From Tribonema minus (Eukaryota; Sar; Xanthophyceae; Tribonematales; Tribonemataceae): a stretch of 64,000 bases of DNA. Position 1 is the first letter of the stretch, and every line of letters begins with the position of its first letter. Under the pieces are notes generated by a model, which saw nothing but the letters and a program-made list of their open reading frames with translations, had not been told where the DNA came from and did no database searches. Positions 33,136-63,600 of the stretch are shown here, piece after piece. The stretch is from contig JAFCMP010000525.1 of the NCBI GenBank assembly GCA_017506865.1, forward strand, positions 1,240,001-1,304,000. Reading direction: 5' to 3'. A program made the position numbers and the translations under genes.

Positions 33136-36100
33136 ATGCGCAAGGGCGGCGCCGGCCTGCGAGGCGCTGCCTCCGCTAGCGCACTGCTTCTGCCTTCTTC
33201 TGAGGACAGTGGGGCTGGCGGCGAGCCATCGAAGGAGTGCCCGATTCTGGTGGCGGTCAGGGTCAGGCCGCGTAACGAGAAGGAGCTGGCGTCGGGAGAC
33301 CCACCTTGCGTCCGGGTGCTAAGCAGGTCGCACCTTTGCATCAGCAAGAATGAGGGCGTCAACCAGTACCTCAACAGCCAGAGGGGGAGGGTGAACGACT
33401 ATGAGTTCGACGTGGTGTTCGATGAGACCGCCACGCAGGCGGAGGTGTATCAGCGCTCAACACAGGTGAGAAACGCGCTCGCGCAGTGACACACGTAGCT
33501 GCCTTGTGCGCAACTCGTCTTACTACTTGGCAATTCAAGTGCATGCAGTCAGGCGGTGAAACGTGCCCCTTCCGCGCAGATGAGCAGTGCCGGTGCCCGC
33601 CGCGACACTGAGGCGATGACACATTGCCGCCCGAGCCGTGCTCTCCGCCAGATGCTGTAATGCGCAGAGTGTAGCTCGCGGTGACAGTTCATGGCCGCCA
33701 AGGTGCAGTGATGCCTTCGGAGAGTTGCAGGTAGCGAAGTGTGCGCGTTTGGCTGCATGGCATTTGATGAGCGGAGCAGGCCCGGCATATGTAGTGCTAG
33801 GGGTTGTTGGGTTCTGAATGTTTGCATCCCCACCGTTGGCATTGGCGCACTGCGCTGTAGCGGCGCACGTGCCAAGCCTGACATTTTTGCAGGTGGTGAT
33901 TCTCGGTGCCAAGCGCCGCAACAGCCGCCGCATGCCATCTGCTGGTAGCACGCCGCTGTTGAACTACGCACCATGGCAGATCTCATGGAGCGCCGGACCT
34001 CTCAGTCACTCTCTACTGTCTGTGGCCACGGTTCACTAGCCCAATATATTCACCTCGCAGCTTCCCGTACACGCCGTGGTCGACGCTCTCGGAGCCGTTT
34101 CACTCATGCTCTGCAATCTTTCAAAAGCGTGACGAAATGCCACACTTGTGGAGGCGCTTCACTCGCGGCGCTGGCGGAGCCGCTTCGACACGCCACCACC
34201 GCACCCGCGTTGCAACTGTTCTTCCGCGGCGCAGGGAGGCATGGCTACCCCTAGTCTACTACTCCCCGGCTCAGCCAATATGACGGCATGTTGATCATGG
34301 CGTGCCATGGGGCAGTGGCCATGGGGCAGTGGCCATGGGGCAGTGGCCCACCCATCCGAATTATCCGTGCCCTCTGTGCCCGATTGCCTGGCCCATCACT
34401 AATAGCTGCCCGCGTCGCTGTTCACCACAGCTACTCCCTCGGTGACCGTGTTCTCTCCCCCGACTGCCTGAATCATCACTAATAGCCGCGTTCTCTCCGC
34501 CTGTGCGCCCCCCCCCCCCCCGCAGCCGCGCGTCGCGTCCGTGCTGGATGGCTACTCCCTCACAGTCTTTGCATATGGCGCCACGGGCAGCGGGAAGACG
34601 CACTCCATGTTTGGTGAGCGGCGCCGCGCCTGAATTCCAGTCTCATATTCAACATCAATCGTGCTCTCGCGTAGGCCCGTGTGCTGGCAGAGCCGCGCCA
34701 CTTGCCAGCGTGCGCACCTGACGGCGCCGCTCTCGGGCAAGTGCGCTGCCGCCGTGCGCGTGCAGGGCCGCCCGCGCGCTGCGGCGGCAGTTGCGGTGGC
34801 GGCAGCGGCGGGCGCGCAACTCGTAGCATTCAGAGCGCATGCGTGTGGGTTTCATGCAGTGTTGCCATTGAGGTGTCAGCAGGGCACGGTGTGCGTGTGG
34901 CGGGCCAGCCACGTCGTCTGCGCAGGGCGCGAGCGCTGAAGGCAAAATTGAAGTGAGGCAACGTTGAAGTGGATCATCGCGGCTGGCGGCGCGCCCGCTG
35001 AGGCCGGTGGTTCGCAAACAGGCGTCGGCTGCTGCCACTGGCCCTGAGGGGCGCCGCCGCTTATGGCAGGCGCGCCGTGTCTCTCGGGCGTCACGTGCGT
35101 GCATGCGCTGTTGGCATGCATGCGTATGCGCTCTCCAGCAGGCGTGCAGGCATGCATATTCACTCAACATATCGCAGAGGATCCTGTTCTTCGAAGCACA
35201 TTGTTGTATGCATGCTGTAGCGTTTCGTACTTGTACATGTTTTCCTATGCGTCCGTACGCACTGCTGCGCGCGTGCGCATCGACAGCGCTGAGCGTGTCT
35301 ACGGACGGCGGCGCCCTCGATGCGCAGCGCTAAGAAGAAATCGTCTCATGCGTGCACTCAGCATGCGCACGCATACATGCCTCCATGCTGGCCTTGACGT
35401 TACACATTGTAACTGGCGGACCGCACACGCGCATCAAACAGGGCGGACGACGTCCATGGACGGCGGCTTCGACGTGCAGCTGAGCGGGATCGTGCCGCAG
35501 GCGCTCTCGGACCTGTTCGTCGCGGCGGCGGCGCGCCGACACGAGCGCTGGAGCCTGTCCGTCAGCTACCTGGAGGTAACAACGATGTGAATCATCGTGT
35601 GATGCTTGTTGTCAGACTGCTATGCGGCGTGTGCGCACTACGTTCCGAGATGGGCAGAGCGCGCTGCGGTAGGATGTCGGGTCGCGGGGCACAGACGCTG
35701 GCGCAGAGCGTGCACACGCGGCAGCTCCGCTGTTGGGGGCCTGGTAGCTGCAGCGGTGGCGCGGCAGCGCGGCGGCGCAGCAGCGCGGCGGCACGGCGGC
35801 GCGGCGGCGCGGCGGCGGCGCGACGGCACAGCAGCACGGCTGCACGGCGGCACGGCGGCGCGTGCACCGGAGGCCGCCGTTCAGCCAGCTGGAGGAAGGG
35901 AATGCAATCGCGGTGGTGTTGTGTGCAGTACGTCGGGGCGCATTGCGAGAAGCCAGTCACAGACACGGGCGCGCTCGCAGCACCGCGCAGCGCCGCACTG
36001 CGCGTGTTCGTTGCGCCCCCCGGGACGCCGGGCATCACAGTTGAAGTACCTAGTCATGCACGGAGCCGCGCGGTCTTGCGGCAGGCGCAGTGCGCGGGTA

Positions 36101-39100
36101 CGTGCGCTGGGTCGGGGCTACGGCGTGACAGTGGGCAGGGTGCCGCTGACGACCGCTCGCAAAGCCGGTGGCGACGCCGCGGGGTGCGTGCCGCGCACGA
36201 GGGGCAGCGTGCGCAGGACCCCGAGGACGTAGGGTGTTTGACTGGTGGCAGTTCACGAGCAGCACTCCCGAGGCACACGCGCTGGCACCGGCCCTCAGCG
36301 CTGCTCTGGTGTAAAGCGACAGGCTGCACGTCCAGCTGAGCCGCAGCGGCGGCGCGCCGCTGTGCACATCTCCCTGCAAATGTGTACGCACGGGGCGTAT
36401 TGCTGAAGTCAGCGTCATGTTCACTCTGGAACAACGTGCGCTGGTACCAATGCTAGCCCTGCTACCCTGTGGCACCACACATCTCCCCGTAAACAACATG
36501 TAGGTACAGTTTACTGCTGAAGTCAGCTTCCTGCTCATTCTGATTAACGTGGGCTGGCATAATGCTGCCCTGTGTGCAGCTTACGTGTACAACGACAGGC
36601 TGTACGACCTGCTGAGCCCCGCCAGTACTAACCCTACCCCTACTACTGTACTGTGGCACCGCTCAGGTGTACAACGACAGGCTGTACGACCTGCTGAGCC
36701 CCGGCGATGGCGCGCCGCTGCGCATCCGTGAGGACGCGCGGCGCGGCGTGACGGAGGTGGCGGGGCTGACGCGGCGGCGCGTGTCGAGCGCCGCGGAGGC
36801 GCTGGAGTGCATCAGCGAGGTGAGCATCGCGGCGTCGCTACTTGTACAATTGCTGCATTTGACGATCGCCATGTTTGACGGCATACGTACTTCGAAGTAC
36901 ATGGTTCATGAATGTGACGCGGCGGCGCGTGTCGAGCGCTGCCGAGGCGCTGGAGTGCATCAGCGAGGTGAGCGCTTTGCGAGCAGGCTGTACCAACACA
37001 GTGGCGTGTGATAAAGCACGTGTACTTGAGGTGGCGGGGCTGACGCGGCGGCGCGTTTCGAGCGCTGCGGAAGCGCTGGAGTGCATCAGCGAGGTGAGAG
37101 CTTTCCATCGAAGCAGGCTGAATGTGGAAGTTGCGTGTGTTGAAGTACATGGTACTTGAGGTTTGACGGGGGTTCCCCCCGCCAGACCGCTTGGATGTGC
37201 AAGCTGGAGTGCATCAGCGAGGTGAGAGCTCCTCGGAGCAGCCACTTTGTTCAACAAGATGATTGTGTTGGACGGTATACGTAGGTACTTTAAAGTACAT
37301 GACTTATGAGTGTGTGACGTGCCGCGCTGCGCGTCCGCGCGCATATGGCCGCGTCGGTGAGGCACGATGAACACGGCTGGGGTCTTTCAGGCACCATACT
37401 CTGGGGAGATGAGGGGATTCCACAGACGGCACCTGCACTCACCCCGGGACTCACACATGCACGACGGTTGATAGGGTAGACTGGAAGAGCTTGCACAAGT
37501 CATAAGTCTGTCCTGCATGCCTGCTGCACTGGCGCAAGAACCCCACAGCTAGCATTGCTGTGAAGCAATGCGAGGCGCGCTTCTTGCTCGCGCCGGGGTC
37601 AGGGGCAAGGGCGAGGTGCTAGCGTAAGTGCAGGAGGGGTGGGGGGGGGGGGGGGGGCTCCCTACTCCATGCACAAACACAGGGCCACGTTAGCGGGGTT
37701 GAGGGAGCCGGGTTGCAGCGGGGCTTGCGCGCCAGCCTTGTGTATCCTGTTGCGATGCGGCCTTCTGAGGCAGCTGCACACTAACACTACCCGCCTTTGA
37801 CTGTGCGCTGCGCCTCGCGCATCACGCGTTCCGCAGGGCAACCACAACCGGCGCGTGGGCAGCACGGCGCACAACAGCGTGTCCTCGCGCAGCCACGCGA
37901 TACTGCAGGTGACGCTCCCACTTCAAGTTGCCTCCTCCCACTTCAAGTTGCCTCCTGCGGCGCTCGTCGGGCCCGCATTATCATGTTTGCTCTTGCAGTC
38001 TTTGATCTTGCAGTGCATTGAGACGCCCCGGGGTGCTGCTGAGCATCAATGCCTGTGCGGGTTAGAAGTGAACCGCGTGCGCTTTGTCGCATGCCCGCTA
38101 GCTGTCCGAAGCGGCTTGCCTGCTGCGTGGGCCAAGGCGGACTGATCCTGTTGGCTTTTTCTGCTCATACATTTTCTTTGCGAGAACCTGTTGTGGCACG
38201 TTAAGTCTAGTAAAGTAAAGTAAACGTGAGATCTATGTAGGGCCAACTGCAGCTGCTAAGCGGGGAGGCACGTACACCAACTTGGAGTGTGAGTTGGCGC
38301 ATGAAACAGGCACCGGCGCAGCGTCCCTCAAAGCGATCACCACAAGTGTACCACCTGCAGACTATACATGACCGCATCAGTTACATGCAACCGTTCGTTG
38401 TTCAGCCAGCGCAGCCCCCCCCCTCACCCACGCATGCAACCCCACCCCTCTCCATTCTCCCCACACCCCACCCACCCACACCCACACACACCCAACCCCA
38501 CCCCTCTCCATTCTCCCCACACCCTACCCACCCCCCCCCCCATTCCCCCCCCCCCCCCCCGCTTCAGGTGCACGTCCGCAGCGACGGCGTGCAGGAGTGC
38601 AGCGCGGTGATGAGCCTGGTGGACCTGGCGGGCAGCGAGCGCGCGGGCGCCGCCGCCAAAGACCGACAGCGCCTCACGGAGGCGTCGCACATCAACCAGG
38701 TGCGTGTGCGGCGGCGGCGGCAGCGCTCGGCTCTCTCACAGCCCCGCACGGGGGGGGGGGGGCAACGTGCGCGCTGGCAGCGTCGGTTCCCGGGCGCAGT
38801 GACAGCAGTGGCAGCTCTCTTCCACAGTCCTGTGCGGGTGTGTGTACGGGGGGGGGGGGGCAGCATGCGCCGGCAGCGCCGCTTCCCCAGCGGCGCCGCA
38901 AGCGAGCGGGCGCGCGCTTCGGGTGGCGACGCTCGCGAGTGGAATGCCAAAGAAAAGAAAAAGAGTTCAACGCGCGCGAGCAAGCGTCGGATCATGAGTC
39001 GTGCGGAGCTGCCGTCGGCGCGGCGGGGGCCGCGCAGAGAGCCGCATCGCGGCGCGCCGGGGGGGCGCGCGGGGCCAGGGGTACGGCGGGCACCAGAGTG

Positions 39101-42100
39101 GACGGAGCGCGGCGCGCGCTCACGGACGTGTCCACACCGGTTCTGTTGTCTTGAGCTGGTGGTACAGGTCGATGTGCGCGATGCTGGCCAAAAGGGCGTC
39201 CGCGGAGGCAGCGCTCGGAGGCGGTGCGCGCCTGTGCCGAGGCATGGTAGGTCACGATCCGCGGACAAGTGCGCAGTCTGTCAGCCACGCTTGCGTGGTG
39301 ACGGAGGCCACGACAGGGGGTGTTCTGAGCACTGTGCATCTGCGGAAGCAGGGTTACGGGGGCGGCTTAAGATGAGGCGAATGCCGCCGCTGGTCATTGC
39401 TGCAACGCCGCGCCACACGCGCCTGCTTCACGCACCCCCTGCCACGTGCCCCCCGTGAGCAGTGGGAGCGGCGCCGTCGTCGTGATCTTCCAGCCGATCA
39501 CCACCGCATCACACCAGCGCTTTCTACAGCGTTGGCTCTGAGAAGCGGGTGCGTATGCCGCGAGCGCTGACGCTGTGTCCCATCTAGCAACCGAATCGTC
39601 ATCGTGTTGAACCCCAGCTTATGACTACTGCGGTATGCCCCCCTCATCCCCCTACCCTCCGCTCGCCGCGCAGAGCCTGCTTGCGCTGGGAAACTGCATC
39701 AACGCGCTCAGCGGCGAGGGCGACGCGCAGTGCCAGGCCAAGTACCGCGACTCCAAGCTGACGCACCTGCTCAAGGTGGGTACATAGGCATGCCAAGACT
39801 TGAAGTTGACGCACCTGCTCAAGGTAGGTTGGTGCTTACGCGCCGCTGCCGCTGCTGCCGCCGCCGCTGCCGCCACGGCCACGGCCACGCAGTGGTCGGC
39901 ACGCACCGCCACTGCCGTCGCCTCGCGCGCTGCTTGCAATGCTGCGGCACGCACTGGGCCGACTCTGCTCGGTCAGCTCAGTTCACACGGTCGTCAGTGG
40001 GATCGGCCCTCTGACCACAGCAGCAATGACGCAAGCATGCATTGCGGGCTGGCAGCGAGTAGCATGCCACGTGCGGCTTTGGCAAACTCTATGTTCAATC
40101 CCGCTTGCGCACCGCGTTACGCTGCGTGTCTCAGGCAGGAGAGCGTGGTGCGCCACCGCAGTGTGGCGACTGCAGCGAGCTCGCTTGGCCTTGAGCAGCA
40201 CAGGGGTGGATTGCCGGCTACGAGCGCTGTTCCCACAATTGGTTGTAAGGCGCCGACGTCCCTGTCACCATCGTCAGCAGCGTACCATGTGCCAAGAAGA
40301 GGCTAGGTCTGCTCTCAACCGCCCTTGACGCACCAGACTTGTGTGCACTGAACCCCGCATGGGGCAGCCTCGTGATGGCCGTCAGCCAAAACCCTAGCCT
40401 TGACCTGAACTCTACTCAGAACCCGGAACCTCGCCTGGTCTCCGCCATAACCCTACTTGCGCCGCGCCACTCTCGCGCACAGGGGAGCATGAACGGGGCA
40501 CTGCAGCGTGGTGATGATCGTGGCGGTCGCACCTAAGCCTAGCCCTAACCCTAGCTCTGATCCTGACCCTAAGCTATGATCCTGACCCCAAGCTCTAATC
40601 CTGACGCTAAGCCTGAGACTGGGCGCACCACCCGAACCCCTGTCGTGCTGCTCTCACGCGCAGGGAAGCCTAGAGGGGCACTGCAGTGTGGTGATGATAG
40701 TGGCGGTCGCGCCCTGCAGCGGCACGTACGAGGACAGCCACAACGCGCTCAAGTACGCCAACCGCGCCAAGGAGATACGCGTCAAGTCCCCGTCCAAGGT
40801 CGGTTCGGGCGCAGCAGGCGCGCCCCCCGGTAGCTCGAAGTGTTGTCTCGCAGCGCCGGGTGGACGTTGAAATGTAAAGTTCTGATCTGACGCAGCGGCC
40901 GAGAGGTTGAATGACGCAGGGTAACCAAAGGCGTGCATGCGCGCGTGCCAATCAATGCGTGGGCATCACGGTTCACTGCCAGTAAGCTCTCGGGTACTTC
41001 ATCATAAAAGCGCTCATGGGTGCCTCAGAGGGCCCGCGTAATGATTTTCAAGGGCCAGTCGAATGGCGGGGACTGCGCCGTCCGCGCGTCTGGTGGGCAC
41101 CCGATGCGCAGACGGTACTGCCCCTGCGGGTGGGTTGCTGCAGGTGACGACGTGCCACTGCAGCCCGGTGCCAGCCGCAACTTGAACATGTTGCATTGCC
41201 TGTTGAGGGTTGCCCGCAGAGTGCCATCGCAAGCAGGAGGCAGGACAGGAAGCTGGTCTGCTCGTGTGAGGCCGTCGCTGCAGCTCACCGCGCGACGCTA
41301 GGCAGTCAGTCGCAGGCGGCGCGCGCAAGCGCATGGCGCGAATGCTGCGACGACCGCTTGCGCGCCTGCTTACAACGGTAATTGCCTGCAAGCGTCGGTT
41401 GCGAGCTTCAACTGCTGAGCGAGTGCACGACACACACGTGCAGCGGTCGCACACGCAACGTCATCAAATGCACTGCAACTTGCTGCGCAACGATCGGCTG
41501 CAGGCGGCGGAGCCTGCGCTCACGGCGCGCGAGCGGCGGCTCGTGGAGCTCAACGAGGCGCTCGTCGCAGAGAACGACGAGCTGCGTGCGGAGGTGCAGC
41601 GGCTGCTGCGCGTCGTCGCCGACGCGGAACGACGGTGAGAACAGAAGTACTTGTTGACTTCCGCTTGCGGGGCAAAACCCCTGTTTCGCACCACGTCACA
41701 TCACGTGTGCTCCCATTGAGGTCGTGCACGTTTTTCCCGCTGGTGTACGTCGAGCATGCACAGACACTCGCGGAGGTATCGTGGACTTGTGATTACACCG
41801 AGAGAAGCCGAGTGTCAGGAGGTTACGCAGGCATGTTACCACGATGCGGCGCCTCAGACCGCGCTGCCTGGACACCGGCGTCGCCACATGCGCGGCCCGG
41901 CGCTGCAGCTCCGCACGCGCAACGCATGATGATGCGCTGCGTCAGAAACCGCCGTTGACATGCAGTCTGCAGCGGCGGCGCAGAGCATGCGCATGCGCCG
42001 CGCCTCTGACGACGTCTGGGCGGGCGCCGCTGCGGCGGTGCGCGCCGCAGCATTGCTCAGCATCAGCGCTCGACCCACAGTAAGGCGCGCAGCGGCCGCA

Positions 42101-44550: not shown

Positions 44551-44582
<32 letters not shown>

Positions 44583-45505: not shown

Positions 45506-45540
<35 letters not shown>

Positions 45541-47669: not shown

Positions 47670-50171
47670 CGGTCGCCTGCCGCCAGGGCGGAGCGCGCCG
47701 TAGTACTCCGATGCACGCCTAATACAAGCTGGGATGCGCTAGACGATGGCGACGACGAAGCCGACCATTGATACACACGCCTGCAGCTTCAAGTTGTGGT
47801 GCACGGCAGCCACGGCCGCCACCCCTGTAAATATAAACTTCTCAAATATATTACCACTTTGAGTGTGCGCGGAGCTACGGCCTCAACGCTTCGGAATGGC
47901 TGCTGGGCATCGTTCTTGCGAGTGTTGCTGCTGTTGCTGCTGAGCTTGCTTGCGCTTGGGTCTCAAGAGGGGACTGGAGCCCTTTCTCTACTGCATGCTA
48001 GCACTGCATGCTTCGAAAAAAGCGCCAGTAGTTGGCGCCACCACCATGCCTGGCGTGCCTTCGACACTGCTACCGTGCAACGAGTGCAGCGCAGGCGCAA
48101 AGCTCATGTCGCCATGTGCTGGTGCCGCCCTCTTGACTGCGGAATGGCGTTTGCTGTTGTGCAGGTTGATCTGCATTTGCTGCATGCTCAGCTAGATCGT
48201 GCTTCTCATGCAGGTTGATGCATGCTCCTCTAGATTGTGCCTCTCACCGTGTCGTGCATTCCATGTAGCAATGACTACATGCGCTGCAGCATGATGGCTG
48301 AATGCTGTCTGTCACAATGTACATTGCGCAGTGCTCAAGCTGGCATCCGCAACCGAGGCTGCTGACGCTGATGCATGCCTGGCGTGCCGAGGCTCTCAAG
48401 CCATCGAGGGTACAGATGAATACAGCGACGAGTACAGCCGTCACACAAGGTTGAGTGTCGATGCTGCAATGCTCAACCTGGCATCCGGAATCGAGGCCCG
48501 AGCCCGATGCTGATGCACGGTTGTGCGATTTCTTTTGCAAATGCCTCTATACCCTTCTTGCATTCTGGACATTTTAACCACGCCAGTGTCGGTACTGCGA
48601 CAACTGCTGCCTCACGTCAATGGGTCTCGCTCAGTCTGCATACATGTTGATTCTGGCTGGGCAAACACTGAAGCATAAGAACCACCCGCCCCTCTCTACA
48701 CACCGCATCGTGGTGATGCAACCACTCTCAACCACCGCGGAACGCGATCATGTGCAACATGGGTAAGGCCATAGGCACATCTTGTAAACAACAGGCAGAC
48801 CCAGCGGAGGCGAAGTGCGCGCACACAGATCATGGCGGCGAGGCAGCCCGCGGCAATGGGTGCAAATGTTGTATTGTGGAATCCGGTGGCGGCGCGTGTG
48901 CGCGCCGACCCATGGCAGTTAAAGAGTCCGCGCCGCCGAGCCGCGCGCATGCGCACACGCTAAGCCGTGGCGTGCCACCGTGCAACATGACATTTGTGTT
49001 TGTGTGCAGAGGGCGTGTGTGGGGAGGGGGTTAAAGGGGGTCTCGGCCCACGCCTCGTGGAGCGAGCCCCCCTCCCTCGCCCCCCCCTGGGAGCGCCTAC
49101 TTCTTCTTCTTGCTTGTCTGCGCAGGGGGGGGGGGGAGGGGCGAGTGCAAACCTAATTCAGCACGGCAAAGTACAGCAATGCTGCGGCGGCAGCAGTTTA
49201 CTTTAGTGCAATAGGAAAGGGGGGTCATGCCGTCCCAAGAAACAGTGGCCGACACACCTGCAGATATCCCACGTGACGTGTACATGGCGGAATACTTTTT
49301 CATTTCAATTCATGTGAAGTGCGTTGTGCGCTGCCCCCCCCCCCCCCACACACACACGCAGCTCCCCACACGGCCCAACGACCACGCAGGCTCGCTCCGC
49401 GGCATCGCGCGCCGCGCATGCATGCATGCACAATGCCTGCTGGTGGCGTTAAGACGCGCTCGAGTTCCGGCGGGGCGTGCACGCCAGCCGACGGGGCGCA
49501 CGCGAGGCGCATGAATGGCGCGCCTCCATGTCCTCACGCACACGCGCGGCGGCAGACGGCGCTCTACGGCAGATCCGCGCCGTCGCTCCGCCGCAGGCGT
49601 GCATACAGCTCAGCACATGCCTGCTCATCGTCTTTCAATTGCTGTCCCTGCTGCACGCCCAAGACGTAGCCGCGAACCCCCCCCCCCGTCCCCCTTGAAA
49701 GCAGTACTTTGAAACGCGTAGGAGGTCTGACCGCGCATCGTTTCCGGCGCTCGCTGGCACGCGGACATTGTGCAGAGCTCTGCAGCTGATGGCCTCAGCG
49801 TTGGGGTCGCGGTCGGGAGCTGGGGTTAGGTTTACATGCGCATACGGAAGCCAGCACGCGCGACATGCAAGACGGCACTTCAACCCATCACGGACATCCA
49901 CCACTAGACGGCGCTCTATAGAGTAGACAGCCCCAATCGCTCAGCTGCAGGCGTGCTCGCAGCTCAGCATGCGCGTCGTCATCTCTCAAGCACTGTCCCC
50001 GCTGCGCGCCCAAGACGTGGCCACGAACCCCTCTGAGCCCTTCATTACAAACCCCTGCCTGAACCATGAGCGGGGTGAGCCTGATTGCGCATTGTTCCCG
50101 CCACTCGCTGGCTCGCGCGCATAGCGCGGTGCTCTGCGGCCGATGGCCTCAGCTGCGCATGTGCACACGGC
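47670..50171. other. Convergent intergenic region between kinesin and PA2G4
   Basis: No gene is supported. Contents: a CAGGTTGAT...CTAGATCGTGC duplication (about 48,163-48,245), a GC(A/G)(A/G)TGCTCAA(C/G)CTGGCATCCG duplication (48,327 and 48,466, period 139) and the larger duplication listed at 49,555-50,157. Long C/G homopolymers are frequent. Confidence 0.5.
49555..50157. repeat. Diverged tandem duplication, about 354-bp period, downstream of PA2G4
   Basis: Units 49,555-49,802 and 49,908-50,157 share, in order, GACGGCGCTCTA, GCAGGCGTGC, GCTCAGCA, CGCCCAAGACGT, CGCTCGCTGGC-like and GATGGCCTCAGC blocks. The unit ends next to the last PA2G4 exon. Confidence 0.7.
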
Positions 50172-53100
50172 TCAGCACACGCGCAGTGCGAGCCTCACCT
50201 TCTTCTTCTTCTTGGCCTCCGCCTTCTCCTGCGCCGCCTGGAGCGCCGCCGCGCTCTCCTCATCGAGGGTCTGCGGCACAAAGGGAAGCAAGGCGGCAAC
50301 GGCGGGGGGAGGGGGTTAACCTGATGCCAACATTTAAAACACCCTGACCACCACCCCAACAGCGTGGGCGGCAGGGGGGGGGGGGGGGGGGAGCCTGATG
50401 CAAACCCTAAAAAAACTCTAACCACAAACCTCAAGGTCCGTGCGGGAGCGCGCATGCGTATGACTATAGATATAATGAGTGCACCGCTGACAGTGCTGCT
50501 TGCACGTTGGAGCGGGCCTGACGCTTGAAGCGCAGTGTGTGCGCAGCACGGGCGATGGACGGGCAGCGCTGCCGCGATGCGCAGTCGGACACCGCGCTCT
50601 CGGCGGACTCGCTGTGCGAACCGCGCAGCCACCAGGCGCCGACCTCAATCGCCTTGCACGCATAGGTGGAGTGCAAACATTGGCACGTACTACTGAACCG
50701 CACCAGACTAAGCACTGCCTGAATCGCAAAGCAACACTCGCTTTGTCAGACTTGTACGCCTCGTAGTCAATGAGCGACCGCGCAACCTACGGGCGGCACC
50801 GACGGCAGCATCAGCACCATATTCTCGAAAACCATTTAACAACGGCCGAACACCCCGATCCTTTCTGGAGAGAGGAGGTAGCACTGCTGGAGAGCCCATT
50901 CTGATCACGAGACGCCCCGAAAAAGGAAAAGGACTTCCCGAGTCTGCGACAAGAGGGAGTGCGCACGCACGCACCTCACCTCGTCTGTCTTGATTTCACG
51001 ATACAACGGCGCTCACCTTGTCCGACTTGTACGCCTCGTAGTCGATGAGCGACCCCGCAACGACAGGCAGCACCGACACCGGGAGCAGCGCCACATTCTC
51101 ATGAACCGTGCATGAGGTCCGCACACACTGGCAATTTTCGAAGGGACGAGGTATCGCCGCTGGAGGGCCCGCTCTGGTCATGAGTCCCTGAGCTTGCGAA
51201 AAGAATCAGTGCGCATGCGCGCCTCACCTTGTCCGACTTGTACGCCTCGTAGTCGATGAGCGACCCCGCAACGATGGACGGCCCCGACGGCAGCAGCAGC
51301 ACGGTGAACTTGGCCTGAGCGATGACCTCGCCGCTGTGCCCGTAGAGCACCGGGAAGGGCTCCAGGAGGTCGTGGTTGACGCACTCCTTCACGCCTAGCC
51401 GCGCCTGCGAGGGGGTCGTACGGGGCGCCGTGTGCGCGCAGCGGCGCGGTGAGCTTCGGGCCCGCATGCGCGCGAGGCGTGTGTGCGCAGGAATGCGGCG
51501 CGCACGCCGACACAACTGTGCGGCTTTTTAGCCATCGCTTCATTGACAAGCAAAGCAGAATTCAAAACAAACTACAATTGAAAGAGGTTCAACAGTCGGA
51601 TGGGATGGTGGTGGTGCGGAACGGACTGCTGCACACGTCGCACAGCGGGGAGGGCTCCAGGAGCTTGCGGTTCAGGCACGCCTGCACATCCGCCCCCTGC
51701 GGGGATTCTGCGAGCGTCGCAGGCGAGGGACGCAAGGCGCGCACACGCCTGTGGCACATGCCGGAACGCGGGACGCGCGCAGACGAAGTGGGGCCGAACC
51801 GAACGAGTGCGCTGAGAACGTCGCGTCTCCGTCCCTGAGCCGCAACAGCACAGGCGCTGCATCTGTCGCCTGACAAGCAGAAAATGCCTCGCAGGGCCGC
51901 AAAAGTGCGTCATTGCGCGGCGCATACGCGTGCGTGCATGGCGGCGTACGCGGCATTCGCACAGCACTTGCGCGGTTTGCTGTTCTGCGCTGAAAGTGCA
52001 AGTGGAGACGCTCTGACATGACAGCTCTCTCGCATGCTCACCTGCCGCTCGTCATCAAAGGCGCGCAGGCAGAAGGGCAGCGTCGGGAAACGCACGCTGA
52101 TCTGGTTGAACAGGTTGCGGCTCGCGTTCATCTTCAGCTTGTACTTCTGCAGCGGCCGCGGGCGACGCAACGACAGCAGCAGCAGCAGCAGCGATAGACG
52201 CATTGCGTACCGTCAGAACTAGAGGCGCGCACGCTGATTGGGTGCTTGAGTAAAGTTTCATTCATAGGCGCCAAGTACATGCAATCTGAGCTGAGCACGG
52301 TGAGGGGGACACAGCGGGGGGGGGGGGGCGCCTCTGCAGGGGGACACGCTGCCGCGCGCTGGTGCACCCGCTGCTGGTACGTATTGAGTCCACCGAAGAA
52401 ATGACCTGTATGCAGGTGTCACAACCCCAACGCTGAGAGCAGAGATTACGTCGTAATGCTGCGTGCATGCCGAAACCGTCAGTGCCGCCGCCGGCCGGCC
52501 TGCACAAGTACAGGCGCCCACGGTCCGCAACCCTAACCCTAACCCTAACCCTAAGCTGGCTGTCACAACGCTGTGACATGACCAACAAGTTGAAGCGGCA
52601 CGCGATGCAGGGCACACAGAGTTGATATCGCGCTGCGTGCGCCATGGCATTGCGACGGGACCAGGCCATTCAAACTTCAACTCTCAGTCAGCAGTCGCTG
52701 GTTCGAGACGCCCCCTTCTCGCAGCGGCGCGGACGACAGCACGCCTGCATCGTGCCGCAACGTCGACTCTGAGGCTGGCTAGCCGCGAGGCTACTCCAGC
52801 ACAGCGATTCCTCTTCGGGTGATCGCTCAGCTTCGCAGGCCTTTGGCCTGCAAAGCACGCTCTTGCGCTCACAATCATCCGAACAGGACAGGCTGTACAG
52901 GAAGTGGCAGGCGTAGGCCTGCGGCCAGCCAGCCTCTGAATCGAAGGTGCAGTACGCGGCAGGCGCGCTGTCGTCAGCGCCACTGCGAGAAGGGGGCATT
53001 CAAGCCGGCGCATGACGCGGCGCAGCGAATGGAACAGACGCATCAGCGACCTCAATTTATCAACTTCAACTCTGGCCTGACACGCGCCACTGGCACGGCG

Positions 53101-56100
53101 TGCTGCTCGCCATGCCGACGGCGCACTTGAAGACGGCCGCGGCGGCGAACGGAACAGGCGCATCAGCGACCTCAATTTAACAACTTCAACTATGGGCCTG
53201 AGAAGGACCAGTTGCCCCGTGGCTGCTGCGCGCTGCGTACCTTGTCGATGGCGCGCTTACGGAGACAGGTGCATCAGCAACTTCAGCTTTCAACCACTAA
53301 ACTGTGGTCAAGGTCTGACAAAGTGGCTGCTCCCCTTGTCCATAGCGCGCTTGAAGACAGGCAAGGCACGGCGGACGAGACGTGCATCACCAACCTCAAC
53401 TTTCAACTTCAACTCTGGTGGGCTGCGTCACCTTGTCGATGGCGCGCTTGAAGATGGTGGTCGCCTGCGCGCCCTCCTTGGGCTTGCCCTCGCCGCTGGT
53501 GACCAGCACGTTGACCGCGTACACCTGCGCGCGCGCACGCGGGGGCGAGCACGCGCCAGTTGTGAGCATAATTCTACTTGAAGTGCGGCAGAAGCGCTTG
53601 GACACATGCATGCAGCTGAGCCAAAGACGCAGACCAGGTTCGCACAGCGAGACGTGCCTCACAAGAAGGATAGATGATTTCACGCGACATTGTACAGTAC
53701 ATGAGTATTATTTTATTTCACATCGCTGACTTCACTTCAACAGCCTGGTTCAAAGTCCAAGACGAGAACTTTGTAGCGTAATGCGCAAAAGAGAACTGGC
53801 ACCACTGCATCGCGAGAGCGTGCTGAATGCACATCCTCGCGTCGGCGCTGCGCACGCGCATGCATGCCTTCATCCTACAAGGGCATCAAACGCGGCTTGC
53901 GCACCGCATTTACTGCACATGCAATGGCCACCTAGCCCTAACCCTACGGCGCCACGCACTTCAACACTGGCAGCACGAGGTCTGCAACAGGCTGTAGTGC
54001 GGCCCCGCGTCAGCGCGCGCACATACATCATGCACATACACATGCGACAGAACGAAAGGCAAGAAACGCACCTCATTCGCCGCAAAGGTGATGGCCTCGT
54101 GCTTGGGCTCGTCCTGCCAGAACAGAGGGAACACGCGAGGGCACTCGTCAGTATAGATATAGAGGGTCAAGACACAAAAACACGCTTGCGCCTACTACTA
54201 CTGGCCAGCCCCGACCCAACCCTCACCCCTTGCGTGCGCCCAAAACCACCCCTCTGTAATCGAGCGTGCAACCCTGACCCGCCGAGCTTGACGTGCGAGC
54301 ACGGACTCGTTAGTGTGCTGCAAGCTAACCATAACCCTAAGAACAGCCGTCAGGCCCGTCGCCCTTTGCACGACAAGTGTACAGGTAGCAAGAGAGGCGG
54401 CGCCCACACACGCTGTGCGCACTCCAATCCACACAAAAAGCATTAAGCCTGACCACCCGCTAGGAGTGCTGCCGCGAGCGGTGGCGCATGAGCCCTGCGT
54501 GCTCCCCACAGATACACACCTCTTGAAGTTCAAACACAGCAGCGCTGGGGCAAGTGCTCTGACGCAGTGTGCCAGTGCGCGCCGAGCTATGCTCGCGGAA
54601 GCGCGCTCTGCCTCGCACGCGCAGCACCGTGTTTTGAGAGAAAGCTATAACATTCGACAGTTGCAGCTAAAAACAGGAGGGCAAACTCACCGCCCGCGGC
54701 ACGACCGTCTTGGAGCCGTTGATGATGTACGGCTTGAGCTGGTGCATCTTGGTGCCCGTGACAATGTTGACGCCGTAGCTCGTGGCCACCTTCCGCACCG
54801 TCTCTGCCACCTGCATTGTTGTGTGCGCGCGGACATCGTCATGAGTGTGAGTTAGTTTGGTGCAGTCGTGGCCACCTTCCGCACCGTCTCAGCCACCTGC
54901 GTTGTTGTGTGCGCGCAGGCATCGCCATTAGCGTGCGATAATGTAGTGCAGAATAACGGGCCTGCCTGTACGTCGTGCTGTCCGCCATTAGTGTGGGTGC
55001 TGCAACTATAGTCAGCGAGTTGGTCTAACGCTTGAAGGGTTTGAATGTGATCTAATGATTGAGAAGCTGCCTGTGCCTGCGCCTGCGCCGAGTGCGCACA
55101 CACGCTGTCGTTAGTGCGTTGCTTTGACGCGGAATAAATTACCCAAGCGTGTACAAGTGCCAGCGCACCCCTTGATTGCGTTGCATACAACTCCAAGACC
55201 ACTGCCACCAGCCAGCTTCCTCAAGGCGTTGCCGCTCACAGCTGCGGCACCGCCGCCGGCGTGGCTAGCCGTTCCGGCAAGCGACAGCCGCCTGCCAGTT
55301 CATCCACGTGCATAAGAGCAAAAACTCCCCCCCCGCCTGTGCCACCAGAGCCGTGCGTGCTCTGCACTGCCATCAACCTCAAGCGGACGCGCCTGCGCCA
55401 TCCTCCGCCCCCCAGCACCATGAGTGCATATTGCTTACAGGCACCTTGCCCTGCACTGCGCAGCCTGCAGCGAGCGCTGATGCATACTGCCCCAGCGCTC
55501 AGCATGCGATATCCATCACCGACGCCTGTTGAATTGTACAGCCAACGAGAGTACCAATGGCGGCAGGCAACCTGCGCCGCTTCGGCAACGGCGCTAACTG
55601 CAGCACCGCCGAAGCTGCTGCTTCTGGGGACACATCTTCCCAATTCGCAGCACGCCGCGCAAACTAGCCTCCCGCTTCGCAGCAGACGTAAACGCCATAT
55701 GACTGCTGCCTCCCTCCCCCCTCTCCGTAATCTGCTCCAAAGCAGCCACTACCACACAAAATGCAGCCGCTTCCACTCCCCCCCCCCCGACACAAAAGTA
55801 ACTGCCACATGTAACCGTGTAACCGCCGCCGCCTCACCTGGTCGTTGGTGGCGCCGGGCACCATGGCGGCGGCGGCGAGCTGCGCGGCCTGGTAGCACGC
55901 CAGCATCACGTCCGCCTCCGCGCCCGTAGCGGGCGCCTCCGCCGTCGGCGCCGCGCCAACCTGCACCGCACACGTCAATTCACACGCGCGTTAACTTCAA
56001 CAACAGGGTGTGTGTGCGAAGCACGCCAGCATCACGTCCGCCTCCGCGCCCGTAGCGGGCGCCTCCGCCGCCGGCGCCGCGCCAACCTGCACCGCACACG

Positions 56101-59100
56101 TCAATTCACACGCGCGTTAACTTCAACAACAGGGTGTGTGTGCGAAGCACGCCAGCATCACGTCCGCCTCCGCGCCCGTCGCGGGCGCCTCCGCCGTCGG
56201 CGCCGCGCCGACCTGCACCACGCGCGTGCATCACAGGAATGTCAACTTCAATAGCGGTAAGTTCATCAGGGCGCGTGCGAGAAGCACGCCAGCGCCACAA
56301 TACGTCCTCTCCTCGCCCGCCGCGGGCGCCTCGCCGTTGGTGCAGCGCCGACCTGCACAACACGTGCACGCCACAGCACGCTAGCCTCAGCAGCAGTAAT
56401 GCAACAGAGCGCTTGCGTGCCCACCACCATGGCATTTCACCACGGCGTTTCCCGAGTACATTGCGCGATGGCATGAGGGCGGCGACTCATGTTGCTGTGC
56501 CTGCCAGGCCCGCGCGCCACCGCCGATTAGGATGCACAAACTCATGTGACCCAGCAACCCCCCCCCCCCCCCCCCATGTACGCACGCGCGCCACCCCTGA
56601 ATCATCGCGCTCGCCACCGGGCGCTAATTCATTTTTTTAGGCATGCTGCTGTTGTCGCGATAGCCTCCCCCCTGCCCCCCCCTCCCTCTCACGCGCCCAA
56701 AACGGAAGGTGACGCACACGCCGGCTGGCTGAGCACTGCTAACAAACAGACGGAGCCGCCACGCTCGCCAGCCTATCTCAATAGGTGTACGAGCGCGCAT
56801 ATGGCAGGCGAGATAGCGGCCGGCCTTAAGCACGCGGAGCGCGCGCCGCCGCCGCCGACGCAAGCGTACAGACAGCTACAGCAGCAGCGCTCACCTTGAC
56901 GGTGTGCGCCGCGACGGCAATGTAGCCGGCGACGTGGCAGCCGAGCTCGATCTTCACCAGGTCGCCGTCCGCGAGCGGCGGCTGCACGGCGCGCGCGCAG
57001 CGCGGCGGAGGCGCGTGTGATGGCGACAGCGGGCGGCGCGGCGCGGCGGCGACAGTGACAGCGGTTGCGCGATGTCAGCACGCGTGTCAGGAGAGAGAGG
57101 GACAGAGAGAATGAGAGAGAGACGGAGAGAGTGTGTCCCTGCGCGACGCAGTGAGCGCGGCGCAAAGGTGGAACGATTGCGGAAATGCGGGGCAGTGTGC
57201 GGTGAGGAGTGTGCGGCCTGAGCTCCGCGCGCGTTCGCGAGCGCTGCTGCCTGAACAACGTGGACGCGCTCCCGCGCCGCGACGCACATGCGCGACGCTG
57301 CCACGACGCGAATGCGGCGCCCAGCTGACCCGCGCTCTGCACGACGCTCCATCATTCATCGGCGCCACTGCCGCATGCGCCGAGAGGCATCTACTGCAGT
57401 GAGAGTCGAGCAAGCGCGGGTTCCTACGGGGCATTTCGAGAGAGGCAAAGCAGGGGGCGTCCAGGTGGGGTTCGTGCAGGGGGGCCGGGGGGATGTTTGG
57501 CTGGGGCTCCAGGGGCGAGAGGCCACCGGCCGTGAGAACAGAGGGCCGCCGCCGTAGCGAAGGGCACTCCCCGCGCCGCCCGGAGCGCTGCCGCGGGCGC
57601 GCGCGTCCCCCCCCCGCGCATCGAGCCCCCGAGGGGGCGAACGCAGGGGGGTCATCGCGTGCGCCGCTTTCGTCTTCCGAGGTAGTGGACCGGCTGACCG
57701 GTCAGAGCCCTCCTCGCTGGCCTACTAGGCCCCCCTCGTGAGAGGGGGGACCCTGCGGGCTGGAGGCTGGCGGTCGCGGCAGCCACGGTTGTCCGCTCGG
57801 TGGTGGGGTAATGGGGTTCGTCAGTTTGCAGACGGCGTGTGTGCTTTGTGTACTTCAAATTCTGTACTTCAATGTTTGTGTACATGAGTGTTTGCTCACT
57901 CGGTGAGTGCGAGGGCGGGTCGTCGGTATACTTGGTGTGTGCTTCAACCTTGTGTACTTCAACGTTTATGTACATTAGTATATTTCTGGACGACGCGGCA
58001 GGTGAGTCTGTTTGTTGATACGCGAGCGGTGCGGCGAAAGCTTGTGAGTGTACAGCTGTGCAGGCAGCTGCTTTCTTGCTTCGTGAGTTCGTCTCAGCTG
58101 GAGAATGGAGGTCACTACGGCCACGTTAATCTGCCAGAGCGCATCAGCCTCAGGACGAGGGGCGTAGCGTGGCTAGCAAGCTGGCGGAAGCAGGGCATAT
58201 GCCCCCCCTCCCCCCCCACATCCCTTCACGTCAACATGAGCAACCTCGCACAGACGTGCACGGCGCGTCATGTGTCGCTGCAGCGCAATGAGGGATGAGA
58301 GTCAGCGCTCAGTGGCGCGATGCACAAGTACTACCGCTTCTCTGAGGGTCCCCCCTTGGAACAGCCCATGATTGATGCAATCCTGAGCTTCTCTTCCGCG
58401 GACAGTGCGCTGTGACAGCAGTGCTCGTCTACGGCCATTACACCAGCAAAACGGGCGCAGAGGGCATTGTGGTCACCTGCTGTTCAGCCTCTGATTCCAG
58501 CGGGCTGTTGTTGCAGACGCACTCGTTCACCGAGATGCACGTTGGGAATGCAATCCCCTTCTCCACTGCCACCCCCTTGACCTTCTTTTGAAAGATCTGA
58601 GCGCACCTCTGAGAGTGGCAGACAGCAGAGCAACGGAGCAGTACCAGCAGACAGGCATGCATGGACAACAGGATCAGACACTGCAACTATGCATGGCAAG
58701 TAACTTTTTACTATACATTGTGCACCAATGTGAGCTGCAAAATCAGAAGCCTTGCTTGATAGAAGCATATGCTGAACTCAGCCCTGCAAGACATGAACTG
58801 GCAGGAAGCAAGGTCACAGCAACGATGGTGGCATTGGCACATGTACAAGTTGCAGTGCGATCAGCGAAAGCCATTCGCCCTTCTCACCGTTGTGATGACG
58901 GTGTCTCCGAACTTGCAGAGTTCCGTGAGTCGTGCGCCCGCCACGCACTGCTGCACAACGCCGCTGAGGGCCAAGTTGACTATCTTAGCCGCCTCCTGAT
59001 ACTTGGTGGTCACGTCCGAGTTGCTCAGATCCTGAACCTCCTCCCCCTCCTCTTCCGCAGCAGTAGGCTTTCATGCACAGATGCAGAGGGAACAGCATGC

Positions 59101-59213
59101 GCCGACAAGTGTCAGAGACGGTTGCGCGCGATCGGATGACTTGCTGCGCGTATGCGATGGAAAGATCGCCCCTGTTAGGGACTCACCACGTCCATGTCCT
59201 CTGCGTCGGACAT
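50172..59213 (-). CDS. PA2G4: Proliferation-associated protein 2G4 / EBP1 homologue
   Basis: Eleven exons on the minus strand, all phase 0: 59,213-59,187; 59,067-58,888; 58,608-58,477; 56,981-56,895; 55,960-55,838; 54,810-54,691; 54,113-54,072 (42-nt microexon); 53,524-53,432; 52,146-52,042; 51,404-51,228; 50,270-50,172. Predicted 394 aa, the same length as human PA2G4. Recognised blocks: EKGIAFPTCISVNECVC, GDLVKIELGCHVAGYIA, AHTV, MHQLKPYIINGSKT, VYAVNVLVTSGEGKPK, FPTLPFCLRAFDDE, AKFTVLLLPSGPSI, and a C-terminal Lys-rich tail (KAEAKKKKK). Family knowledge: a methionine-aminopeptidase fold without catalytic metal ligands that binds ribosomes and RNA and regulates growth. The last exon either reads to TGA (VRLALRVC) or is spliced at the gtgagg after the Lys run. 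Exons 5, 6, 8 and 10 are flanked by partial copies of themselves. Confidence 0.93.
50742..51320 (-). repeat. Donor-side echoes of PA2G4 exon 10 (three copies)
   Basis: The exon end coding SLIDYEAYKSDK occurs at 51,228 (genuine), 51,017 and 50,742, with periods of 211 and 275 bp. Copy 2 is identical over about 47 bp and keeps a gtgagc donor. Copy 3 has diverged and its donor reads gcgagt. Confidence 0.92.
51620..51716 (-). repeat. Acceptor-side echo of PA2G4 exon 10 (decayed)
   Basis: On the minus strand this encodes ADVQACLNRKLLEPSPLCDV, comparable to the exon 10 start GVKECVNHDLLEPFPVLYG. It includes the shared DNA block GGGCTCCAGGAG (plus-strand sense). Confidence 0.65.
52529..52555. repeat. 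Interstitial telomere repeat (CCCTAA)4
   Basis: Four consecutive CCCTAA units in PA2G4 intron 8. Shorter, degenerate units occur at about 31,741, 36,628, 40,535-40,620, 53,935, 54,327 and 59,335. Confidence 0.85.
52699..53007. repeat. Imperfect inverted repeat (arms about 90-100 bp) in PA2G4 intron 8
   Basis: Arm 1 (52,699-52,796) contains CCCCCTTCTCGCAGCGGCGC and GAGGCTGGCTAGCCGC; arm 2 (52,912-53,007) is its reverse complement with few changes (e.g. GCGCCACTGCGAGAAGGGGG). The first 38 bp of the match have about 3 differences. The loop holds a small GCAGGCC-TTT-GGCCTGC hairpin at 52,834-52,850. Confidence 0.8.
53009..53457 (-). repeat. Donor-side echo array of PA2G4 exon 8 (four units)
   Basis: The exon end TIFKRAIDK (plus-strand CTTGTCGATGGCGCGCTTGA at about 53,433) recurs, decayed, at 53,332-53,362, 53,239-53,269 and 53,109-53,138. 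A companion intron block CATCA(C/G)C(A/G)AC(C/T)TCA...CAACTTCAACT recurs at 53,041, 53,161, 53,270 and 53,384. Confidence 0.8.
54777..54945 (-). repeat. Acceptor-side echo of PA2G4 exon 6
   Basis: CGTGGCCACCTTCCGCACCG at 54,781 is repeated at 54,867 (period 86), extending through the acceptor (CCACCTGC(A/G)TTGTTGTGTGC). Weaker CGCCATTAGYGTG remnants continue to about 55,000 and 55,110. Confidence 0.85.
55900..56390 (-). repeat. Acceptor-side echo array of PA2G4 exon 5 (four units, 126-bp period)
   Basis: Units start CCAGC at 55,900, 56,026, 56,152 and 56,288. Units 1 and 2 differ at one of 126 positions, unit 3 is diverged in its intron part, and unit 4 is decayed. Each holds the 5' part of exon 5 (ATGAEADVMLAC) and its TGCAG acceptor. 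Only unit 1 continues into the full exon. Confidence 0.95.
57836..57985. repeat. Two-unit repeat in PA2G4 intron 3
   Basis: GTGTGTGCTT...GTACTTCAA(T/C)GTTT(G/A)TGTACAT(G/T)AGT at 57,836-57,889 and 57,934-57,979, period about 100 bp. Confidence 0.7.
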
Positions 59214-60638: not shown

Positions 60639-63600
60639 CTACCCCGCCTTCCGCACGTCCCTGTGTCGATACTGCGCCGAGGAGCCCCCAGAGCGCCCTC
60701 CTGCCGTGCCGTCGCCGTCGCCGCTGCTCGACAGGTTGCCGACGGCGGCGCGCATGAGCAGGAGCAGCACGCCGAAGATGCAGCAGATGAGGCCCACGCC
60801 GCTCGTGTAGCGCGCCTGCGAGACGTCGACCTCGTGGATCTCGCGCTGCGCGGCAGCACCCGGGGGGGGGGGGGGGGGGGGGGGGGCGGAGCGGCGGCGG
60901 GGCGGCGACAAGAGGTGTAGACCAGGCACGAAGCGCGCGCACAGCCATATGGATGACGTGACGCATACCGAGCGTCAAAAAAGCACCCTACTTGCGAAAA
61001 GAAAAATCCCTCACAACGCATCAGCACCCCCCACAAGCGATGCACGGGGGGTGGGGCCGCGCCGTGCGTGCAGCGCGCTGTGGCGCGGTGTCAAGCGCCT
61101 CGTGTCGTTTGAGATCATCGCGAGTCTCTCCGCCATAGCGACCGCATTGCAGCCCTAGTGACGTGGACCGTGAGCTTCTGCGCGCGTGACCTTGGCGAGC
61201 GCACCAGCGGTGTGGCAAGTACGGGGGGGGGGGAGTTCTATTGAGCACATCATGCGAAGCGCGCCGATGACAACTCCATTCCCCGTCCTCACGCGCTGCT
61301 GCCGCCGCCCAGTCGCCTGAGCGCTGCTGGTCTTGAACGCATGGGGTCCTGAGCACTGATTCCAGGCGCAGCTGAGCGTTGCCCCTGCGAAGTGGAGCAT
61401 CTAGCTGATCGCTGACTCACGAGCCTGAACACCGGCATTGGACGTGATCACGTGATCGCTGACGCATGCGCCCAAGAACTCATGTACTGCATGTTCCTGA
61501 GCGAAGGCCAAAAAGGTGCACGAGCAGCACCTGATGCATGCGTCTGAGCACCTGACAGGTGCCGTTCGTGAGCGCTGACGCAACTACCCAAACACATGTT
61601 GAGCGCTGTCGTGTGCGCCTGAGCACTGACCTTGATGTACTTCATGATCTCCTGTACCCGCGACCGCGGCACCTGCCGCCCCAGCCCCCTGCTGCTCATC
61701 GGCCGCATGTGCGTCTGCCGTTGAGCGTCCTGCAGGGAGGCGAACGAAGGCGCGCGCACATGCCGGCAAGAGCGTGCTGTCAAGAGAAAGCTCAGCTTTG
61801 CTGATGGAGCGCCGCGGCTTTGCTGACGCAGCGGCGCCACTGGAAACATGCATGAAGCGCTGCAGGGTCACGTGATGTACGACTGGAGTCGCTGATGCGA
61901 TTGAAGAGGCGCCGTACGTGCTACATGGGGCCGCCGCTCCAGGCGCGCCCGAGGCAGACGGTGCAGGGCATCGGGCACCCATCCCATCCCCCCAGGGCCT
62001 ACTAGACATCCAGGTTTATGTCCTTGTATTTTGTAGACGCGCCCTCCTTCCCCCCCCCTCCCCCCCCCCCCCGCCCGCAGCAGCCGCGTTGTACGCACCA
62101 CCCCCCTTAACGACGAAAGCCACTTCGGCGGCCGTCGGCACTGCGCGCTGCCGCTGACATCAAACGCAGTGTGCAGCTACCGGCTGGCCCTGCGAGGGTA
62201 GCTCGTAGCTCGCGCAGGCGCTGATGGCTGTGCTGTATTGGTATGTGTCTACTTGGGACTAAGGTTAGCAACACCGGCCACTTTCCGCGCCATGTGCTGG
62301 CGGCGCGCTGCCCCAACTGCCCGCGCGGGTCTGTTGCATTTCAGTGCAGACGGCGGCGCCGCTGGGCGCACGGCTGGTGCATACCCTGACTGAATCACTG
62401 CTGTGGCGCCTGCTCGTTGCGCTCCATCGCGTCCGCATATCTGCGGCACGCATGCGCGCCGACGACGGCCGCCCTCCGCGAGCGACCCCCGCGCGCGACG
62501 ACGACGCGCATCGTAAATGCGACAGACGCGACGCGCAGCAGCAGCAGCAGCAGCGCGCCAGCAGCGTGCGCAAGGCGTTGCGCCGCGAGCAGCCAGAGCT
62601 CCGGTGCGCGGCAACGCACCCGACCCGAAAACCCACAATCGAGGGGCGCTGCTCGTGAAGCGACGCGCCTTGCCGCGCTCACCAACCACTTGATCCATCA
62701 ACAGACGCTTGCGAGGTCACGAGCCGTGCTCACCAGCCACTTGATCGCGTAGCTGCTCGCCGTGGTGCGCCGCTTCTGCCGGCTGAGCGACGTTGGGTCC
62801 ACGATCTCCCCCTGGTACAGCCGCACGAGCTCCGCGCTCATGAGGTTGACGCGCGGGAACGCCGTCTCCTCTCTGCGGCGCGCGGCACGCGAGAGAGGGC
62901 GCGCGCGCGACGCGGCCATGTGAGAGCAGAATATCATTCTGAATATGCGATGCGTGCGCGACTTTCACGCATACTGCCGGCAATGTGAGAGCAGAGTATG
63001 CAATGCGGGCGCGATTTTCACGCGTACTGCCGACGAAGTGAAAGCAGAATATGCGATGCGTGCGCGGTCTTCACGCGCGCTGCGCACCGTCCGCGCGACG
63101 CGGTGCCAGGCAAGCAAGCTGCGTCTCCACCCGTGCGGCCAGCGAGCGCTGAATACTAGCCCTAATCGCGACACAGGTCGGCCGTGGCGCAAGCTCGAGA
63201 GCGGCGCCAACAGCTCAGATGGGCGCTGACGCAGCAAGTGCGCCACAGCTTCTTCCTGTCAACTGCCACATTTGCTGGCCTGCAAGAGCACCAGCAGCAT
63301 GACCCACCCACAACGTACTCAACTTCAACATCAATGACAAAACTGCCACATCGTGCACCACTGGCCTCCTGTCGCTAACACCAGCCCCACTGGCGCCCGT
63401 GAACGCAATGCTTACCACTGCTGCAGAAGGGGGGGGGCTGCTTCATCTGTGGTCGCAGAATCTGCACGCTCTACTCATCTGCTTCATCACATGCTGTGTC
63501 CTGGAACCCGGCTACAAAAATCATGCGTGCCAGTGTTGTGCCCTGCCCCCGCCTTGCCACCCCGCCGAGAGCTACCCACGCCTGTATGCTGCCAGTCGGA

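Follow-up and report, generated by a model that had tools for sequence, protein, structure and literature searches.

Self-copies of exon edges in the adjoining introns of Tribonema minus, probably left by recurrent tandem duplication across splice junctions

In a 64,000-nt window of the genome of the xanthophyte (Xanthophyceae) Tribonema minus (the whole stretch analysed, C522:1240001-1304000, from an assembly of 158 Mb in 554 contigs), a kinesin gene and a PA2G4 gene carry in their introns copies of the neighbouring exon edge, frequently together with its splice site. The locus raises the question of whether such copies, here termed echoes, are a real property of exon-intron borders in this alga, and of what process leaves them there. 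About one in five of the T. minus borders tested has decaying copies of itself in the adjoining intron, and recurrent tandem duplication across the live junction is their probable source. Changes in intron length are usually credited to transposons and small insertions or deletions. The echoes make a different route of intron growth legible in the sequence, one in which the junction is copied and the old copy displaced inward.

Junctions were taken from genes modelled with a spliced protein-to-DNA aligner written for this work. The main set comprised the two window genes and ten kinesin genes elsewhere in the genome, 12 genes in all, with 57 introns whose flanking exons are at least 30 bp long, giving 114 junctions. 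When each 40-bp exon edge was aligned to its own intron with scores of 2 for a match and -3 for a mismatch and a threshold of 34, a match was found at 30/114 junctions (14 donors and 16 acceptors), 8/32 in the two window genes and 22/82 outside the window. A second set of five further kinesin genes gave 5/46, bringing the kinesin and window genes together to 35/160, and a small third set of non-kinesin genes, whose models are less certain, gave 1/22. Pfam scans covered 30 of the 43 candidate coding stretches in the random sample, and three of the genes found were modelled. All echo counts leave out introns that are shorter than 60 bp or flanked by an exon shorter than 30 bp; introns under 300 bp were left out of the visibility and event counts, and those under W + 80 out of the equal-target edge comparison. 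The scope is one species and mostly one gene family, almost all data coming from kinesin motor domains, and the echo rate is less certain for other genes.

The controls for the main set gave 0/2280 matches in dinucleotide-shuffled introns, 3/2280 in intron stretches of other genes, 1/114 for reverse complements and 0/114 for reversals; those for the five further kinesin genes gave 0/46 and 0/920, the latter in introns of other genes. The intron on the wrong side of the exon was matched in 0/37 and 0/37 cases. The copies thus lie on the same strand as the copied segment and adjoin it, as the wrong-side and reverse-complement controls indicate. The genome-wide comparison of exon edges with exon-internal segments proposed in the original prediction was carried out on a small scale, where edges matched in 14/56 and 16/56 cases against 1/45 and 2/45 for 40-mers beginning 50 bp within the exon. 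Exon 40-mers beginning 60 bp from the edge matched their own intron at 0/37 donor and 1/36 acceptor sides. Junction echoes are confirmed as real, and they are not restricted to the window.

Within the window, the kinesin gene (KIF18/19-like motor domain; 33136..40798, plus strand; PF00225 matches at C522:1274526 and 1280661) was modelled by spliced alignment with the deposited protein P0121 and has exons at 33136-33465, 34526-34613, 35442-35575, 36667-36819, 37837-37908, 38568-38699, 39674-39775 and 40664-40798. P0121 agrees with all kinesin junctions used except three edges: its model is without exon 35442-35575 and places the beginning of exon 4 at 36626 rather than at 36667, and these edges were set by homology and open reading frames. 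The deposited start at 36626 comes after the nearest echo and before the 36667 start, and echoes may mislead gene prediction, as in the kinesin stretch 35442-36666. The PA2G4 gene (peptidase M24 fold; 49100..59213, minus strand) has 12 exons by spliced alignment with the deposited T. minus protein P0001, which supports all PA2G4 junctions used; the hand-spliced protein is 100% identical to P0001, and a PDB match identifies it as PA2G4.

About ten junctions had been reported as repeated in the adjacent intron, and eight of these pass the 40-bp edge test while two others fall below its threshold. At kinesin exon 4 the acceptor is echoed by a recent copy at 36585..36621 (exon part 37 bp, identity 1.00, score 74) and an older one at 36309..36348 (score 45), and the donor by three copies at 36928..36967 (score 70, GTGAG intact), 37054..37093 (score 65) and, shorter, 37203..37221 (score 38). 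The remaining kinesin echoes belong to the exon 7 donor (39797..39823, score 39, followed by GTAGG) and the exon 8 acceptor (40495..40523, score 48), all on the plus strand. On the minus strand, the acceptor of PA2G4 exon 5 has three copies with a 126-bp unit in the nearest, at 56047..56086 (score 75), 56173..56212 (score 70) and 56314..56352 (score 42, the least similar). For the pair described as 125/126 identical, a repeat search gave 99% over 126 nt. The PA2G4 exon 6 acceptor is echoed at 54866..54896 (score 57), the exon 8 donor at 53335..53357 and 53241..53258 (score 36 each), and the exon 10 donor at 51017..51056 (edge 40/40 identical, score 80) and 50743..50779 (score 64). The acceptor side of PA2G4 exon 10 reaches 21 in the edge test, but the whole exon against the intron finds a copy at 51643..51687, short of the exon edge, with score 45, above the maximum of 27 in 200 mononucleotide shuffles. 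The tenth junction, the end of a membrane-protein exon at about 62735 (minus strand), is weak: its echo near 62,690 has a core of 10 exact exon bases at 62686..62695 (score 20, alone not significant), continued through the donor by eye.

The anatomy of the copies places the splice junction inside the copied segment. Echoes lie 48-515 bp from their junction, the nearest being 80-300 bp away at 27 of the 29 junctions measured, and the exon parts of the 49 echoes that were extended cover 18-124 bp, mostly 20-90. A probe of 20 exon and 20 intron bases spanning the junction matched its own intron at 13/52 donors and 15/52 acceptors. In the 43 echoes that reach the junction, identity peaks at this point and drops both ways; in donor echoes it falls from 0.98 to 0.63 over 60 bases on the exon side and from 0.84 to 0.49 on the intron side, random intron sequence giving 0.49-0.62. 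Mean intron-side identity 10-20 bp past the splice site is 0.70-0.75, compared with 0.49-0.56 for random sequence. The splice dinucleotides are intact in 48 of the 57 echoes aligning within 2 bp of the edge (20/24 donor and 28/33 acceptor), so that decoy donors and acceptors are left behind, in agreement with the original prediction. These decoys form a natural series for testing how the spliceosome chooses the right site among near-identical ones. Duplication of a whole exon with both splice sites was not found among the 49 extended echoes, whose longest exon part covers 124 bp of a 142-bp exon.

A sum of exon and intron parts that equals the period within 1 bp is the mark of a true tandem duplication, and 4/49 echoes, measured by extension, have it: the acceptor of PA2G4 exon 6 (exon part 31 plus intron part 55, 86 vs 86), the donors of L023 intron 4 (119 vs 120) and L024 intron 4 (100 vs 99), and the acceptor of L027 intron 3 (285 vs 284). 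Head-to-tail tandem structure is clear in an unrelated FERM gene (L008:1700-2550), where GCCACCAAG followed by GTGAG is present in seven intact copies and a degenerate eighth, about 116 bp apart, and a larger block is repeated as well (L008:1580-2560). This gene was found while scanning coding stretches and lies outside the blind count; its domain assignment rests on PF00373 at 23.7 bits, the cut-off being 23.8.

Repeated duplication across a live junction predicts that the nearest echo should be the best preserved. The 35 junctions carry 66 echoes, up to four each at the test threshold, and 19 have at least two where a Poisson distribution leads one to expect 4.1; a junction with one echo thus tends to gain more. 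The order was examined at 20 junctions with at least two echoes at a laxer score of 30. At 17 of these the nearest echo resembles the exon edge more closely than the farthest does when a fixed 30 bp is compared (p = 0.0001; 2 ties, 1 reversal); with 50 bp the number is 13 (p = 0.007; 5 ties, 2 reversals), and by alignment score it is 16 (3 ties, 1 reversal). The arrays also account for the extra length of the introns that contain them. Median intron length is 1027 bp with echoes (31 introns) and 640 without (49 introns; p = 3e-6), and when the stretch from the junction to the farthest echo is subtracted the echo-bearing median becomes 651 and the difference disappears (p = 0.48), which upholds the claim that echoes enlarge introns.

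A copy in the adjoining intron that includes the splice site, the period sums, the decay, the order and the intron lengths together argue that the echoes are probably the remnants of repeated short tandem duplications of segments including the live exon-intron junction. The process originally proposed, local tandem duplication across existing junctions that recurs at the same junction, is in this respect supported. When the duplicated segment spans a live junction, the copy beside the exon body would keep working and the outer copy would become intron, leaving the protein unchanged; we infer that the duplication is tolerated for this reason. Where the live edge resembles its nearest echo, replication slippage or unequal exchange could add further copies. 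New copies would be laid down at the junction while older ones are pushed inward and fade, so that introns would lengthen from the ends and accumulate decoy splice sites of both kinds.

Several observations weigh against this account. Echo rates are unequal among the three sets (30/114, 5/46 and 1/22). When all echo pairs are compared by score the nearer one is better in only 38/57, the trend being weaker in the middle of arrays, and by local-alignment identity alone the nearest beats the farthest at 12/20 junctions (6 reversed, 2 ties; hand count), since the short cores that survive count as highly identical. The exon and intron parts add up to less than the period in 41/49 echoes and to more in 4/49, so that later insertion, deletion, arrays or another mode of copying must be assumed; a shortfall would follow from decay or interruption of the intron part, and an excess is what arrays give. 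Third codon positions differ between exon and echo about 2.5 times as much as first and second positions, somewhat above the expectation for neutral echoes, making some constraint, mutational bias or exon-to-echo conversion possible. Finally, up to 40/40 of the exon bases nearest the junction can be identical and yet the intron side becomes unrecognisable soon past the donor (PA2G4 exon 10 and L022 intron 3), a pattern that by eye resembles an insertion at a fossil junction and that plain tandem duplication does not predict.

The last pattern bears on the insertion of mobile introns. Introners and introner-like elements are dispersed families that add sequence at splice junctions in a lineage-specific manner, and the T. 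minus echoes are likewise lineage-specific sequence added at such junctions. That such elements inserted at AG-GT sites, or that RNA-templated copies did, is quite improbable as an origin of the echoes, even though two of them hold a short GT...AG stretch apparently inserted, by eye, exactly at the fossil junction. In contrast to a dispersed family, the echoed edges are private to one intron: exon-edge echoes occurred in introns of other genes in 3/2280 and 0/920 comparisons, a search in which the intron parts were not followed genome-wide. In addition, the copies hold intron sequence past the splice site, at the identities given above. Assembly error is highly improbable: one pair at 125/126 identity speaks for it, but most copies differ from their exon by at least several per cent and the pattern recurs on many contigs.

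Retention of the echoes for a function, for example as decoys, as alternative ends of exons or to enhance splicing, is very unlikely, despite the intact splice dinucleotides and a bias of differences toward third codon positions (exon-echo mismatch of 0.064, 0.061 and 0.161 at positions 1, 2 and 3, or 0.041, 0.052 and 0.132 when each junction contributes a single echo). Part of this bias comes from changes at third positions of the living exon. Changes confined to a single copy of an array fall on all three positions (41, 39 and 62; p = 0.03 vs even), stops are made by 8/304 exon-echo differences, similarity fades with distance, and the deposited PA2G4 model splices at the sites adjoining the exon bodies. 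Judged on these patterns, the echoes appear for the most part to drift.

Tandem duplication being the preferred origin, it remains to weigh whether junctions are special. The original prediction called the repeats junction-anchored, and this part is qualified: an excess at junctions remains after correction, but it is partly geometry and longer visibility, and similar repeats occur elsewhere in introns and in the genome. Only tandem duplications that cross the junction can leave exon copies in an intron, so that a concentration there is partly geometric. In a background sample of 260 kb (the opening 60 kb of the window and 200 kb fetched regardless of genes), 154 local direct pairs at 30-600 bp were found and none after local shuffling of the sequence; they cover 9.5%, compared with 0.3% for inverted pairs. 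With pairs up to 700 bp included, local direct repeats cover 9.6%, which marks the mutation type as genome-wide. Interior intron 40-mers are repeated too, 8.0% downstream and 5.9% upstream (72 introns), and copies of a conserved exon gain 1.87-fold in visibility by simulation. On such grounds a uniform process with no junction preference, in which tandem duplications arise anywhere, exon-internal ones are purged and conserved exons keep the match visible, is a reading that is doubtful rather than dismissed.

The counts move away from such uniformity to a degree that depends on the measure. With equal targets, the exon edge is repeated 3.2-3.3 times as often as intron interior (confidence interval, CI, 2.2-5.0). 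For the intron side of the junction the factor is 1.7-1.9 (CI 1.1-3.0), an excess that comes mainly from acceptors, where constraint on the branch site may contribute; the donor-side intron edge, at 1.5 times the interior, is not clearly enriched (CI 0.7-2.6 and 0.7-3.0 for two target lengths), as uniform duplication would have it. In 72 introns, 43 junction-spanning events stand against 23 intron-only ones, a ratio of 1.87 (CI 1.29-2.68), whereas simulated uniform duplication gives 0.48 and 0.51 and reaches only about 0.81 with a full twofold visibility gain (226/557 x 2, simulated events). The least favourable count, in which every intron-only high-scoring segment pair (HSP) including nested ones is taken, is 43 to 70 and nearly closes the gap; we think that the nested pairs are parts of the same arrays. 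The gap would also narrow if intron-only copies decay faster than simulated. Uniform duplication is weakened by the intron-side excess and the event ratio, and the concentration at junctions is likely to be partly geometry and longer visibility with a modest true excess at exon edges. This junction excess is likely about two- to fourfold, depending on the measure used, and would fit either a hotspot or retention.

A dedicated junction hotspot is suggested by these figures, not proven. In its full form, in which the junction is a duplication hotspot and introns grow at their ends with age-ordered, ring-like echoes at a rate well above that of intron interiors, it is possible though short of probable, and its cause would perhaps be splicing or transcription making exon edges break or misalign. 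A mechanical version, with exon edges duplicated preferentially through transcription-linked breaks, nucleosome edges or GC-rich microhomology and selection leaving the junction-spanning part, is likewise possible though less likely than not. It draws on the same excess, on the shortness of the exon parts and on the higher GC content of exons (63.8% vs 56.8% in introns). No breakpoint motif was found, however; microhomology was seen by eye in one case (GTGCGC, L022 intron 3), six young tandem pairs in the random sample have a length minus period of -16 to +3, and the data fit preferential retention equally.

Duplication across a boundary has been described before. Ma, Lan, Niu 2016 (PMC4974935) describe one tandem duplication across an intron-exon boundary in the RdRp gene of potato. 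Its unit took in the beginning of the exon together with the 3' splice site, tract and branch site, the tandem copies differ at few sites, and the outcome was a new intron with both exon copies kept. Similarly, the T. minus unit spans an existing exon-intron boundary. In contrast to that one case with its new intron, 35/160 T. minus junctions have up to four echoes each and it is the old intron that is lengthened; the deposited PA2G4 gene model contains no new spliced intron. PMC4974935 also refers to Rogers 1989 and Hellsten 2011 for intron gain through a duplicated AGGT-bearing exon segment, which the T. minus process resembles as a tandem duplication with splice-site bases in its unit. Unlike that form of intron gain, the T. 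minus unit starts from an existing junction and the two borders of the intron are dissimilar. Own-border similarity was found in 1/76 introns at a score of at least 26, the control being 2.3%, after four introns of 63-81 bp had been dropped whose 120-bp windows overlap (scores 114, 102, 90 and 78, twice the overlap). The echoes are therefore not intron births, although a supply of boundary-crossing duplications is the raw material proposed for intron gain.

Direct repeats of 4-30 bp near intron borders, comparing the 5' with the 3' border, are described as insertion footprints by Rogers and Bendich 2025 (PMC11782384). The T. minus echoes are likewise direct repeats close to intron-exon borders; in contrast, they are longer (exon part 18-124 bp), belong to one border and lie inside the intron. 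In searches of open-licence literature, with subscription papers outside their reach, none of the titles or abstracts returned dealt with systematic junction echoes or T. minus introns.

Other repeated words were met in the same sequence. The word TTGAAGTT / AACTTCAA occurs, in both orientations, 101 times against 4.1 expected in 264 kb (examples at window 57860-57990 and L006:8033-8290), sometimes beside its own reverse complement. Most occurrences lie outside exons: TTGAAGT/ACTTCAA is found 92 times in 65 kb of introns and 5 times in 20.6 kb of exon, some exons being counted twice. A tie between TTGAAGTT and the repeat units was considered and set aside, as the share of its copies found in local repeats, 17% where coverage is 9.6%, makes for at most a mild link, and the control words TTCAAGT, TTGATGT and TAGAAGT give 20%, 6% and 9%. 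Telomere-like CCCTAA words are interspersed genome-wide (TAACCCTA 57 times vs 1.2 expected; window 52529-52554 and 40540-40620), with 0/64 of CCCTAAC/GTTAGGG within local repeats. Long G/C runs are also frequent, with 413 G9/C9 start positions in 260 kb. The window has no Rfam match at gathering thresholds, and on its minus strand an open stretch at 7018-7752 contains a reverse transcriptase domain (PF00078). In a single open stretch outside the window, at L008:8205-9935 (minus strand), a pyroglutamyl-peptidase-like domain precedes the beginning of a PTH2 domain of peptidyl-tRNA hydrolase.

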